Shown here one piece after another: positions 24,107 through 34,961 of a stretch of DNA of 45,159 nucleotides. Numbering within the stretch: position 1 is the first letter of the stretch; every line of letters begins with the position of its first letter. A program made the position numbers and the translations under genes. A model generated the notes under the pieces. That model saw only the letters and a program-made list of their open reading frames with translations, was not told the origin of the DNA and ran no database searches. The DNA lies in NCBI GenBank assembly GCA_003223325.1, contig QHYS01000075.1, forward strand, positions 1 to 45,159, read 5' to 3'. The stretch comes from Acidobacteriota bacterium. GTDB lineage: Bacteria > Acidobacteriota > Terriglobia > Acidiferrales > UBA7541.

Positions 24107-24373
24107 TTAGATCGATTGCAGCTCTTTGCCTGGCTTGAACCGAACGGCCTTACCCGGAGGAATATTAACCTCCTGACCGGTGCGAGGGTTACGGCCGATT
24201 CCCGTCTTGCGCGGCTTGACGTTGAAGACGCCGAAGCGGCGGAGTTCGATCCGGCGGCCGCGGCCCAAGGCACCCTTTATCGTTTCAAAGACCGTCTCCA
24301 CAGCCTGCTCGGCCTTAGTGCGCGTTACGTTCGTACGGGTGACAACTGCGTTCACGATGTCGAGCTTGATCAC
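24107..24373 (-). CDS. HU/IHF family DNA-binding protein
   Basis: The 88-residue protein has the family shape: helices KLDIVNAVVTRTNVTRTKAEQAVETVF, then IELRRFGVFNVKPRKTGIGRNPRTG (the beta-arm with GRNPRTG), and IPPGKAVRFKPGKEL. I chose GTG 24373 because it begins at the first helix and has GGAGG six bases upstream. The longer frame to 24595 runs through the promoter region. It bends DNA and organises the nucleoid; HU or IHF cannot be decided from this sequence alone. Confidence 0.93.
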   Translation of the reverse strand: MIKLDIVNAVVTRTNVTRTKAEQAVETVFETIKGALGRGRRIELRRFGVFNVKPRKTGIGRNPRTGQEVNIPPGKAVRFKPGKELQSI

Positions 24374-24407
24374 GCCACGCCTCCAGCCTGCAAAAAAAGG
24401 GAAGGCT

Positions 24408-24435
24408 ATGCTAACACTGGCATTTAGCTTGTCAA
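24408..24435 (-). promoter_or_regulatory. probable sigma-70 promoter of the HU-like gene
   Basis: On the minus strand there is a perfect TTGACA (24430-24435) and TAGCAT (24408-24413) with a 16-base spacer. They lie 35 bases upstream of the chosen GTG. The long A/T run at 24391-24397 lies in the leader. Confidence 0.65.
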
Positions 24436-24620
24436 GGCAAGGTCTCGACAAACCCGACAAACGTACGTCGCTTCTTGTGATAAAGGCTGATATGAAATAA
24501 ATCAGCCCTTCCAGTGGATTCGATGGCGCCCGGCCCCTGAAACTTTGGCATAGGGGTAGATCGATTGAATTACTCCGAATGCTCCGAATGCGCATGACAA
24601 CCCCTGATTATGGCAGTATG

Positions 24621-25058: not shown

Positions 25059-25619
25059 CTACGCAATGAAGGGACCCATTTTATCAGGGACCTTAACATC
25101 AAATTCGCTATGGCAGTTGATGCAGGATATGTATTGGCGTTCCTTCTTGGCGAATCCGGGGCGCACGGAAACGTGGATGTTCTGCCTCACTTTGCAGTGT
25201 GGACACTCAATCGTCATCTCATTAGCCGTGATTCCGGCAACGCGCTGCAAAGTGGGGATCAAATCGGTCCCGGCTGCGGATTTGGGCACGAACCCATGTC
25301 CCCACAGCTTCATCCCGGCCTTGAATACCGGACCATCGTGGATTGTCAAGAACACTATCTTTGTGGAGGGCGCGATTCGCCGGATTTCGGTAGCGGCTGC
25401 GATACCATTCATGACAGGCATGTTGATGTCCAGCAGGACAATATCGGGCTTCAACTCGATAACTTTTTCGATGGCTTCTTTGCCGTTCTGGGCGTCCCCG
25501 CAGACTTGAAATTGAAAGGAATGCCAATCCAAGAGTTCGCGCAGGGTTGTTCGCGCGGCAGGATGGTCGTCCACAATAAGGATTTTCGGTGGCAATTCCG
25601 CTGCGTATCCCTTTTCCAT
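25059..25619 (-). CDS. response regulator with receiver domain and C-terminal zinc-ribbon output
   Basis: Residues 10-128 are a receiver domain: acidic pocket Asp17-Asp18 (LIVDDH), phospho-acceptor Asp64 (VLLDINMPVMNG), Thr91 and Lys113 (FVPKSAAG). The C-terminal part, residues 136-186, is not a DNA-binding helix-turn-helix. It has two CxxC pairs, Cys139/Cys142 (ECPHCKVRQ) and Cys166/Cys169 (SCINCHSEF), 24 residues apart, which is the pattern of a zinc ribbon, and ends VPDKMGPFIA. No histidine kinase lies nearby. The ribbon closely resembles the stand-alone protein at 26336-26518. I infer a metal-binding protein- or nucleic-acid-contact output; its target is unknown. Confidence 0.88.
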   Translation of the reverse strand: MEKGYAAELPPKILIVDDHPAARTTLRELLDWHSFQFQVCGDAQNGKEAIEKVIELKPDIVLLDINMPVMNGIAAATEIRRIAPSTKIVFLTIHDGPVFKAGMKLWGHGFVPKSAAGTDLIPTLQRVAGITANEMTIECPHCKVRQNIHVSVRPGFAKKERQYISCINCHSEFDVKVPDKMGPFIA

Positions 25620-26118
25620 CCCCGCCTCCCAACTCCATTTTCGTTACGGGCGTGCCAGAGTGCGAGCGGCGGGCGGTACAGGCGTGCTTTACTCGTCAGC
25701 CATTCTTTGGGGCCAATGCTGAGCGGGCGACGCGGGCGAGCCGCCTATCTATCGATTGAGGCAAAGATTGCGTAAAGAGGGTCAGCCCTGATCCTTGAAT
25801 CGCGCCGTGAGACCTCCGACGAGAATTGTTTTCCGACTGCCCTCTGAATTCGCGGCCACATCCCATTGGACCGAATTGGAACTGAGGCGAGACGGCAAAC
25901 CAGAAATCAGATCAAATTCCGCAATCAGAAAGACTCTGAAGCCAATTACCCAACGCAACGTTTCTGGATTGAAACCTAGAGTAAACCGATCTCTCAGTGT
26001 GGAGCGTCGAAGCCTAGCGACTATCGCGTCATGAAGATTACCTAATCGCGCCTCACGTTGGCAATGGCGGCTTCGCGGCGCTAGGCTGCACGTTCTTCCA
26101 TCCCAGTGCTCGCTGCAT

Positions 26119-26335: not shown

Positions 26336-26518
26336 TTAACCGGGGAATGGTCCAGCCACGATTTTATCTGGAACTGGAAGCATGACTTCAAACGGCGGCT
26401 GGCAGATCAGGCATTTAACGTACTGTGCGATTTGCGAAGCGCTTGGTCGTCCGATGATGTGAACTTTTTGACGAGTGTTACAGTGCGGACACTTTACTGT
26501 CATTATGGTCCCGCTCAT
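26336..26518 (-). CDS. stand-alone zinc-ribbon protein, paralogue of the response-regulator output domain
   Basis: The 60-residue protein starts MSGTIMTVKCPHC and carries two CxxC pairs, Cys10/Cys13 and Cys36/Cys39, 23 residues apart. It lines up with the last 51 residues of the response regulator 0.7 kb away: MTVKCPHCNTRQKVHI against MTIECPHCKVRQNIHV, and VPDKIVAGPFPG against VPDKMGPFIA. The start could also be Met6 at 26503 or as far upstream as 26575. Function unknown; the likeness suggests that it shares a binding partner with the regulator. Confidence 0.7.
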   Translation of the reverse strand: MSGTIMTVKCPHCNTRQKVHIIGRPSASQIAQYVKCLICQPPFEVMLPVPDKIVAGPFPG

Positions 26519-26643: not shown

Positions 26644-28284
26644 TTATTGCCTCAACGCGAAAGCGAACAGCGAGCTGCCTGCAGCAACCGCTACGTATTG
26701 CTTGCCATTAATCGAGTAAGTCATCGGACCGGACACAACTGGCGCCCCGACAGTGAACTTCCACAGCAAATTGCCATTGCGGGCGTCAAGGGCAAAGAAA
26801 TAGGCTTCGCGGCCGCCCGTGAACAACAGATCCGAGGCCGTGGTGAGGATGCCGGCGTCGGTGACGTCGCTCATCTTGAATTGCCACTTCATATCGCCCG
26901 TGCGTGGATCAATGGCCCGGACAGCGCCGAAGCCTTCTTCTTCTTTCCGGTAATTGAAACCGCCTGCCACAACAGCCCCCGCTTTCGGACCGTTTCCCGT
27001 TCCCCCTCCGAACCTGAGACCCTCGACGTAGTCCACGTCTTGCTTAACGTAAAGGGTAGAGTAATTTGCCCAACTGGGTATGTAGAACAGTCCCGTGCGC
27101 GGACTATAGGAGGGTGAATACCAGTTCGTTCCACCCTGATTGCCTGGATAAATGAGTGTGCCTTCTCGGCTGGGAACTTTGCCGTGAACACGGATGGGTC
27201 TGCCATTTTGATCAAGACCGCTGGCCCAGCTCACGTCTACGAATGGTTTCCCGAGTAGGAATTTGCCTGTTGTGCGGTCGAGCACATAAAAGAAGCCATT
27301 TCGATTGGCCCACAGCATCACCTTGCGCGGAGAGCCCTGCCAATCCAGGTCCGCCAGTACGGGAATCTGCACCGAATCGTAATCAAATTCGTCGTGAGGG
27401 GTGAATTGGAAATACCATTTCAATTTGCCCGTATCTGCATCAAGGGCAACCACGGAACTGCTGTACAGGTTGTCGCCGCCGCGCTCGTCGCCGTTATAGT
27501 CCGACCCAGGATTCCCGATACCCCAATAGGTCAGATTAAGATCGGGATCGTATGAGCCCGTGAGCCACACCGGCGCGCCGACGTGTTCCCAGGAATCCTT
27601 GTCCCACGTATTATTAGCGGGCTCGCCAGGTTTAGGAATGGTGTAGAAGCGCCAGACCTCCTTTCCTGTTTTTGCCTCGAAAGCCGCAAGGAATCCACGA
27701 ATGCCATACTCACCCCCCGCCGTACCGATGATCACTTTGTCTTTGATGACAAGCGGGGCCAGCGTTAAGGCGTAGCCGGCCTCGGGTTTGGCGACAGCGA
27801 TGTTCCAAATCGGCCGTCCGCCCTTGGCATCAACGGCGATGAGATGTGCATCAATGGTTGCCATAAATAGTGTATCGCCGAGCATTGCTAAGCCGCGGTT
27901 CACGCGGCCGCAGCAGGGGCGTGCGAGGGGCGACGGCGTGTACGAATAAATCCAGAATTGCCGTCCTGTTGCCGCATCGAGGGCCACAATGTCATTCGGC
28001 GGCTGGACCGTGTATAAGACGCCGTCGACAACGAGCGCGGTCGCTTCGAATTTGGTATTCGATGCTTCTCCCGTTCGCGCCTGGAAAATCCACTGCGGTT
28101 CCAGATCTTTGACATTTGTGGGCGTAATCTGCGTCAGTTGGCTGTGACGCTGGCTGAAAAATGTTCCCGAATACGTCAGCCAGTTCTGAGACTCCTGATC
28201 TGCCCGAACAATCCGGTCAAAAGAAACCTGAGCCTGGAGCGAACCGGCGGCGATTAAGATCAGTACAAGCGTGCGTCGAATCAT
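26644..28284 (-). CDS. PQQ-dependent alcohol dehydrogenase, lanthanide type by signature
   Basis: The 546-residue secreted protein (signal MIRRTLVLILIAAGSLQA) is an eight-bladed beta-propeller quinoprotein with several W-motifs (AFEAKTGKEVWRF, ALDADTGKLKWYF, ALDARNGNLLWKF). The adjacent disulfide that sits over PQQ is Cys124-Cys125. Likely metal ligands are Glu192 and Asn258 (GIGNPG), and the catalytic base is Asp301. Asp303 follows in FDYDS; this second Asp is the extra ligand that marks lanthanide enzymes such as XoxF, where calcium enzymes have Ala. There is no C-terminal cytochrome domain. Its ATG overlaps the stop of the cytochrome gene as ATGA, so the two are coupled. It oxidises alcohols in the periplasm; the substrate is unknown. 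Confidence 0.92.
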   Translation of the reverse strand: MIRRTLVLILIAAGSLQAQVSFDRIVRADQESQNWLTYSGTFFSQRHSQLTQITPTNVKDLEPQWIFQARTGEASNTKFEATALVVDGVLYTVQPPNDIVALDAATGRQFWIYSYTPSPLARPCCGRVNRGLAMLGDTLFMATIDAHLIAVDAKGGRPIWNIAVAKPEAGYALTLAPLVIKDKVIIGTAGGEYGIRGFLAAFEAKTGKEVWRFYTIPKPGEPANNTWDKDSWEHVGAPVWLTGSYDPDLNLTYWGIGNPGSDYNGDERGGDNLYSSSVVALDADTGKLKWYFQFTPHDEFDYDSVQIPVLADLDWQGSPRKVMLWANRNGFFYVLDRTTGKFLLGKPFVDVSWASGLDQNGRPIRVHGKVPSREGTLIYPGNQGGTNWYSPSYSPRTGLFYIPSWANYSTLYVKQDVDYVEGLRFGGGTGNGPKAGAVVAGGFNYRKEEEGFGAVRAIDPRTGDMKWQFKMSDVTDAGILTTASDLLFTGGREAYFFALDARNGNLLWKFTVGAPVVSGPMTYSINGKQYVAVAAGSSLFAFALRQ

Positions 28285-29051
28285 GGGTTCACCTGCGCTT
28301 TCAGAGATGCCAGATAGCTGACCAGATCAGCCACGTCCTGGGAAGCTAGCTTGTCCTGATAGGAAGGCATCGGAGAATTGGTGACGAATGAGAATTCGCG
28401 CAGATTGGATTTCGATAAGGACACGAGTTGCTCTTTCGAATCCAAAAGTTGCACAGTAAACGTGTCCTGATTGAGAAGTCTTCCGGTAATCGTGGTTCCA
28501 TTTTGCGTTACCGCCCGAATAAATCTGTTATTCGGTCGCACCTCCGCCGGCGGTTCGAGTAGAGCACTTTGCAACTCCACGCTCCGACGGAGTCTGCCGA
28601 TCCCGCTGAGATCCGGGCCCAGCCTCGAACCGACGCCAGCGACGCGATGGCAACTGAGACATTCCCCTTTGCCTTCAAAAATGGCCTTGCCACGGCTAAC
28701 ATCGCCCGCAGGAATTGCGTTGGAAGCAGCCGAGGCGGCTATGCTTCGCAAATAAGCGACAATCGCCTTCGCCTGTTCTTGTGAAAGGTTGTTGGCAGGC
28801 ATCCCCGTAGCGGGAATGCCGTTCCTCATGATGCGTACAAGGTCACTATCAGAGGATGCCACGCGAAAATGACCATGGCCCAGATCGACCCCTTGCACCG
28901 CGTCACCCTCCGGGCCATGACAGGAGACGCAATTGTTGGTAAATAGTTGCCTGCCGATCTCCGCTTCGACTGGCGTGTACTGCTGCTGGGCAAGCAGTGA
29001 AGATGCCGCCGCTAGCAAGAACACAATCACAACAGGTATTCGGATTGGCCG
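28281..29051 (-). CDS. di-haem cytochrome c with Pirellula-type haem-binding domain
   Basis: The 256-residue protein has a signal peptide (VVIVFLLAAASSLLAQ) and two haem-attachment motifs, CVSCH and CLSCH. The second is in a domain with GRLRRSVELQSALLEPPAEV, TITGRLLNQDTFTVQLLDS and LASQDVADLVSYLASL, which matches the haem-binding domain TIGR02603. I chose the start at 29051, since it begins at the signal peptide; the open frame runs to 29129. It is most likely the electron acceptor for the PQQ dehydrogenase translated from the overlapping next gene, passing electrons to a terminal oxidase. Confidence 0.92.
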   Translation of the reverse strand, partial: RPIRIPVVIVFLLAAASSLLAQQQYTPVEAEIGRQLFTNNCVSCHGPEGDAVQGVDLGHGHFRVASSDSDLVRIMRNGIPATGMPANNLSQEQAKAIVAYLRSIAASAASNAIPAGDVSRGKAIFEGKGECLSCHRVAGVGSRLGPDLSGIGRLRRSVELQSALLEPPAEVRPNNRFIRAVTQNGTTITGRLLNQDTFTVQLLDSKEQLVSLSKSNLREFSFVTNSPMPSYQDKLASQDVADLVSYLASLKAQVNP

Positions 29052-29451
29052 CATGGCGATGCCCACCGTGTTTCTCCTGCCGCTGGTTGATTCCCTGGCC
29101 GTTGCTGACCAGGGAGAGGGCCGAACCATCAGAGACTGATCAGGGCGCTTCTACTCCCTGGGTAAACGAGAGTCAAGAAGATTTGCGACTGGCTGGCGCC
29201 TCGCCCAGTTGAGGATCCCGCCCTTCGAGTCATTGGGACCAGGAAGGTCGGCGAGGTGCGGGCGACGGATCGAATACAGATAAGAACGTTCCAACACTTT
29301 CTACGATGGTGCAGCTCTCGTTGCTGCAACGAGGCCGGATTCGTTTTCGCAGCCGCGTCATTTTCAACTCAACTGAAAGGAATCCGCCGGACGAAAAGCG
29401 TGCGTTTGAAGTCATTTTCAGAGTTATACTTCGCCAAATTACTTGAAACAG

Positions 29452-34335: not shown

Positions 34336-34622
34336 GTTCCCTCTCCTATCAGAGCCTCTTTTTTCACTTACGCTTCGTTTCTTGAGATTCTGGCCTAGCG
34401 CCGCCCCAGCCAGCCACGATAATTATAACAATGCTGCCGCGCATCCAACCCATCAATCCGACCAGAATCGCCGCGCCTTTTGACCATGAGGACTGGGTCC
34501 TTCCCGAACTACGCTCTACATCGGCCCCAACGAACGGCTGACGAGTAAGGCACGCCTGTACCGCGCGGCGCTAGCACTGGGCGACGCAGATTCAGAGAAT
34601 GGATTTGTTGGAGGTGGGACTG

Positions 34623-34961
34623 ATGGCGAAAGACTCGAACCGTGAAAATGCGATTTTTGATAAGGGCTACGATGCTGTGCGGACTATGGCAAAAGAGATG
34701 GTCGAAAATGGGGCAACACTTTCTGACATTCTTTTCCACGCGAACCAAGTGTGGCACGAGTTCAAGTTGGGGGCAGCCAAAGCAGGGCTTGGCAACGTTG
34801 CCACGACAGGAATGTACATGGACCAGTACAACGCGGATACCACAAACGAAATAATCCAGGCTGATAAACGGTATTCGAGCGGAATGGATGCTGCGAGGGT
34901 CAAGCAGTTCGTAGAGAATGAGGAGGAATTGTTGCGCGAGCCGATTCTCGTTCGGCGCTAG
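34623..34961 (+). CDS. unknown 112-residue protein, first gene of a three-gene cluster
   Basis: ATG 34623 follows GGAGGTGG with a short spacer, a better start than the upstream in-frame ATG at 34599. The protein is charged and mainly helical (KGYDAVRTMAKEMVENGATL, ADTTNEIIQADKRYSSGMDA, QFVENEEELLREP), with no signal peptide or membrane segment. I do not recognise it. A 267-residue frame on the other strand covers the same DNA, but its composition is less protein-like. Two further genes follow in the same direction, the last a kinase fragment. Confidence 0.5.
   Translation: MAKDSNRENAIFDKGYDAVRTMAKEMVENGATLSDILFHANQVWHEFKLGAAKAGLGNVATTGMYMDQYNADTTNEIIQADKRYSSGMDAARVKQFVENEEELLREPILVRR

Follow-up and report, generated by a model that had tools for sequence, protein, structure and literature searches.

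Among the described systems closest to the protein studied here is REC-TackOD1 (PF18551), in which a receiver carries a cysteine-rich, probably metal-binding output domain; it occurs in archaea and some bacteria, and its function is obscure (PMC5847659). In Caulobacter, the zinc finger of ZitP binds the polar protein PopZ, and its 43 residues suffice to direct a fluorescent protein to the poles of the cell (PMC5182065). The ribbon of FlgZ/HP0958 (DUF164) is thought to touch proteins or nucleic acids, and RpoN accumulation requires FlgZ (PMC3372290).

We compared these systems with a receiver-ribbon protein encoded in a 45,159-nucleotide stretch of DNA (hereafter, the window) from a soil acidobacterium. 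This phylum abounds in soils and has received little genetic study; the source genome is assembled in 377 contigs and is 98% complete. Like REC-TackOD1, the window protein has, behind its receiver, a C-terminal domain that is rich in cysteine and probably binds metal, but TackOD1 is ~200 aa long with 11 cysteines arranged in five CxxC motifs and an HxxC motif, whereas the window ribbon spans 52 aa with two CxxC motifs, indicating that the two domains are distinct. The ZitP finger, which belongs to the zinc_ribbon_5 superfamily, resembles the window ribbon in length and cysteine spacing and is likewise a small cytoplasmic module within a regulatory protein; however, it is N-terminal, in a membrane protein that also contains DUF3426, and ZitP has neither a receiver nor the GPFP tail. 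FlgZ/HP0958 also has two CxxC pairs, but its ribbon is of another family and is not attached to a receiver. Receivers of the stand-alone, CheY/Spo0F-like type in the source genome are at most 73% identical to the window receiver and lack a ribbon. The original prediction, made from the sequence of the window, that no characterised regulator has this exact layout nearly stands, given that REC-TackOD1 was known to have a cysteine-rich output, albeit a different domain. Metal-ribbon response regulators are known as a kind. Neither this ribbon nor its combinations, nor its confinement to a single acidobacterial family, turned up in the libraries or open-licence papers searched, and no publication on an acidobacterial GPF-tail ribbon was found among those papers.

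The gene for the receiver-ribbon response regulator (25059..25619, minus strand; 186 aa) was delimited by its open reading frame and translation, and is supported by the match to PF00072, by paralogues and by dN/dS. It begins with an ATG, 5 nt ahead of which lies the ribosome-binding site GGGAGG (25625..25630, minus strand). The receiver domain occupies approximately residues 10-127 (25239..25592, minus strand), with the Pfam model Response_reg (PF00072) matching residues 13-121 well above its cut-off (E = 5.1e-24). The protein retains the full response-regulator residue set, namely the acidic pair Asp17/Asp18, the acceptor Asp64, Thr92 and Lys113; the original prediction had correctly named Asp64 and Lys113 as phosphorylation residues and had placed the conserved threonine at position 91 instead of 92. 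An AlphaFold2 model of the full protein (built on 48 aligned sequences from the window and loci; mean pLDDT 90) contained a complete receiver fold of five strands and five helices, with block-mean pLDDT of 91-98 in the receiver part, and upon structure comparison the predicted receiver matched CheY. By its fold and residues, the receiver-ribbon protein has the features of a two-component response regulator. We found no HATPase_c match on contigs C20, C94 and C163, which carry the three intact copies of the gene, indicating that none of these copies has a histidine kinase neighbour.

The C-terminal part of the protein (residues 135-186; 25062..25217, minus strand) was defined as a four-cysteine ribbon with a GPF tail on the basis of its CxxC pairs, a family alignment and four predicted strands. 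Its cysteines, C139/C142 and C166/C169, form the two CxxC pairs that had been predicted to take the place of a helix-turn-helix or an enzyme, and indeed no such C-terminal domain was detected with Pfam or NCBIfam, NarL-type models aligning to the receiver only. A known output domain in the C-terminal part was likewise rejected: the domain search proposed at the outset returned nothing over the Pfam or NCBIfam cut-offs, and no well-studied output domain matched. The best ribbon models both scored below their cut-offs (Zn_ribbon_4, PF13717: 25.1 versus 30.3 bits; MJ0042, TIGR02098: 20.1 versus 20.9 bits), as did weak matches to the Elf1, TFIIS and Brz ribbons. MJ0042/Zn_ribbon_4 domains also differ in being often N-terminal, as in a ribbon-FHA-like protein of the source genome; by eye, an N-terminal MJ0042-like ribbon is joined to an FHA-looking domain both in this protein (L007, 1138-1632, minus strand) and in one of a sister genome (contig C553 of G283; L020). 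Four such cysteines would be expected to bind zinc. In the full-length AlphaFold2 model the ribbon forms four strands and the tail is of low confidence, and a model of the ribbon on its own reached moderate confidence (pLDDT 71). Alignment of 22 ribbon members revealed four invariant cysteines, an invariant Gly-Pro in the tail and, after it, a nearly invariant Phe, yielding a signature of two CxxC pairs spaced by ~23 residues with a conserved GPF closing the sequence, which the window copy carries (E = 1.4e-26 against the family profile, the window sequence being among those from which the profile was built). The GPF(P) tail closes nearly all members; since it is conserved after the second CxxC and yet predicted at low confidence, it may be a flexible binding motif.

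Ribbon profile searches (A2, then A5) were conducted in samples of the family (89 genomes), the class and the phylum. Matches were found in 21 of the 89 family genomes, a few of them weak or doubtful (e.g., L118, a cytochrome-like frame), and almost none in the class and phylum samples, where the few weak hits are probably unrelated ribbons (e.g., a transposase-like protein). The ribbon occurs as stand-alone frames of ~55-100 codons, C-terminal to a receiver, at the extreme C-terminus of a GGDEF protein in 10 genomes of another, related genus, and in one protein with a possible N-terminal helix-turn-helix (HTH_3, E = 0.0034, under the cut-off). The window itself holds a stand-alone ribbon gene (26336..26503, minus strand; 55 aa, MTVKCPHCNTRQ...DKIVAGPFPG), in the same orientation as the response-regulator gene and 0.7 kb upstream of it, which was recovered in the genome search (E = 4.9e-10) and by profile (E = 2.0e-23, this sequence being itself among the 13 that built the profile). 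In the GGDEF-ribbon proteins (L107-L115 and L125; AGPFPK end), the GGDEF motif and the ribbon were verified in 10 of 10, and the one protein scanned matched GGDEF with E = 4.2e-43; their N-terminal parts, judged by eye, appear membrane-like. These proteins, present in 10 genomes, are commoner than the REC-ribbon fusion and are perhaps the better system to study. Profile-profile alignment, an independent check on the family, paired ribbons of the REC/stand-alone type with those of the GGDEF type from end to end, the closing GPFP included (hhalign 98.3%, E = 1.7e-14). Judged from these sequences, the ribbon is a separate, mobile family, and it represents a small, concrete signalling module that is uncatalogued, the databases searched having no family for it.

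The source genome contains three intact receiver-ribbon genes: the window copy and two others on contigs C94 and C163, which are 77-79% identical to the window protein over its length and keep all four cysteines. We calculated dN/dS by the Nei-Gojobori method for the three pairs, taking receiver and ribbon apart. For the receiver, dN/dS was 0.18 (window-C94), 0.17 (window-C163) and 0.14 (C94-C163); for the ribbon, it was 0.53, 0.15 and 0.10, respectively. Based on these values among the three intact copies, both halves are under purifying selection, the ribbon weakly so in the window-C94 pair. The receiver-ribbon layout is therefore more than chance, as indicated by the intact copies, the retained cysteines and dN/dS. 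Compared to its kin, the window copy has an in-frame 6-bp tandem duplication in the receiver (TTTCAA, giving residues FQFQ) and a deletion of 2 residues in the C-terminal tail. The source genome also carries a decayed receiver-ribbon copy at C94 19341-19739 and a truncated receiver on contig C18.

Receivers close to the query are numerous in this genome (48 matches at E 1e-15, many of them stand-alone). The ribbon-fused receivers, which come from the two genomes of the genus that have them, grouped by maximum likelihood into a single clade nested among the stand-alone receivers, with support of 95/90 in one tree and 96/97 in another; given this one supported clade, the layout probably arose in a single fusion event. 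In the sister genome G283, which has contig sequence in common with MAG AA84 (QHYQ01, labelled Acidobacteria gp2), one locus (L017) has a stand-alone-type receiver that ends in a stop codon, a 43-nt spacer containing GGAGG, and a separate ribbon frame with an ATG of its own and one internal stop. This arrangement looks like the pre-fusion state. The remaining loci of the fused lineage in G283 are broken, by a change of frame in L021 and L019 and by truncation in L008, and as every such locus found there is broken, the system seems dispensable in that genome, though the broken loci may be assembly errors. Two further genomes of the genus, both incomplete, yielded no fusion, and in a wide survey with the whole protein, nearly all matches listed outside the sister acidobacterium spanned the receiver alone (L037 and L073 extend beyond it). 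Part of the history of the fusion is recorded in the unfused receiver and ribbon lying side by side, in the single fused clade and in the decayed copies.

The closest solved structure to the ribbon, both by sequence profile (2nb9; E = 0.022, hhalign 93.5%) and by fold (Foldseek probability 0.97, TM 0.61/0.65; Z = 4.3, 2.6 Å over 46 residues; model pLDDT 71), was the ZitP zinc finger. As these matches are all weak (E = 0.022, E = 0.13, Z = 4.3) and confidence in the model of the ribbon on its own is moderate, we treat the likeness as a lead and not as membership. The second-best fold match, a LysW-like carrier protein, was rejected: LysW has a conserved, modified C-terminal Glu, and the last ribbon residue varies in the 22-member alignment.

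The reading we favour, tentatively and at slightly less than even confidence, is that the protein is an orphan response regulator whose ribbon serves as a docking or targeting module under phospho-control, the product of fusing a receiver to a stand-alone ribbon. A stand-alone receiver would have been joined to a small, lineage-specific zinc-ribbon adaptor that elsewhere is still a separate gene; the ribbon and its GPF(P) tail would dock or target the protein, by analogy with the ZitP finger for PopZ; and phosphorylation of Asp64 would change the receiver and thereby set the timing of partner binding or the location of the protein. We infer Asp64 phosphorylation, the docking function and the phospho-control of the ribbon from the features described above, and control by phosphorylation of a metal-dependent contact, as originally proposed, is plausible. 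The ribbon fits an adaptor better than an effector because the same module sits on REC, an input domain, and on GGDEF, an output enzyme, and is also encoded by itself. Counting against docking are the weakness of the ZitP matches, the broken state of the sister loci, the two missing tail residues of the window copy and its ribbon dN/dS of 0.53 with C94; moreover, the ribbon shape is widespread and serves many functions. If docking is true, one ribbon partner would account for the receiver, cyclase and stand-alone forms together.

Alternatively, the ribbon could be a sensor, its cysteine pairs reading zinc or oxidants and tuning the attached signalling domain, like CZB in the cyclase DgcZ. We consider this unlikely: the attachment to GGDEF enzymes, which a C-terminal ribbon could regulate, is in its favour, but four-cysteine ribbons usually hold zinc structurally, and a sensor would leave the conserved GPFP tail without explanation. 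A zinc-binding domain on a GGDEF protein does sense zinc and hypochlorite, yet that domain, CZB, folds as a bundle of helices and carries three His and a single Cys, unlike a four-cysteine ribbon (PMC8846402). It is somewhat less likely still that nucleic acid or RNA polymerase is the target of the ribbon, making the protein an unusual regulator at the level of transcription or RNA. Receivers with an output domain mostly control transcription, and the weak Elf1, TFIIS and Brz matches, together with the relative bearing a possible N-terminal HTH_3, point in this direction; however, all four matches fall under curated cut-offs, no basic residue is invariant among the 22 ribbon members, and DNA contact is less natural for a ribbon whose GGDEF-linked forms seem, by eye, to be membrane proteins.

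The reading to which we give the least credence is that the fusion is a decaying, lineage-specific by-product of duplication, in which the ribbon is just a passenger and the receiver works alone, as its stand-alone paralogues do (e.g., in the role of phosphate sink or shuttle). The many stand-alone receiver paralogues, the broken copies in both genomes (the first C94 copy, the C18 truncation and all the sister loci) and the failure to find the fusion in the two other, incomplete genomes of the genus are in its favour. Against it, the ribbon codons are under purifying selection in two of the three pairs (dN/dS 0.10-0.15), each intact copy retains the four cysteines, and other genera have kept ribbons of this family. 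Extending the docking reading, free and fused ribbons might compete for one shared partner and so link the phosphorelay with c-di-GMP signalling in acidobacteria, the ribbon being an undescribed lineage-specific module borne by receivers, diguanylate cyclases, perhaps a DNA-binding protein, and also a free 55-aa protein; we regard this extension as improbable.

Finally, alignment and a genome-wide pattern search revealed a 33-bp leader motif ahead of the response-regulator gene (25676..25708, minus strand) that is common to the C94, C163 and C18 receiver copies. The motif has five copies in the genome (reversed control: 0), the others being at window 34529-34561 (plus strand), C18:4707-4739, C94:20915-20947 and C163:9174-9206, and it is possibly part of a shared promoter or leader. 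The copy at 34529-34561 precedes an unrelated 120-aa open reading frame (34599-34961). The source genome has a large c-di-GMP and receiver complement (50 PilZ matches and the 48 query-like receiver matches at E 1e-15). PilZ lies near two ribbon loci (contig C267 of G283, by Pfam; C163, by eye), but in a genome with 50 PilZ matches such proximity is weak evidence, and a PilZ-ribbon link was rejected. Elsewhere in the window, 24107-24595 (minus strand) encodes an HU/IHF-like DNA-binding protein, whose true start is probably internal since the domain begins at residue 77 of the longest open reading frame. A PQQ-type dehydrogenase gene (26644-28284, minus strand) scores above the TIGR03075 cut-off and reaches 554 bits against the "acido-empty-quinoprotein" model TIGR04528 (cut-off 650); it overlaps by 4 nt a cytochrome c gene (28281-29129, minus strand), with which it appears to form one operon.
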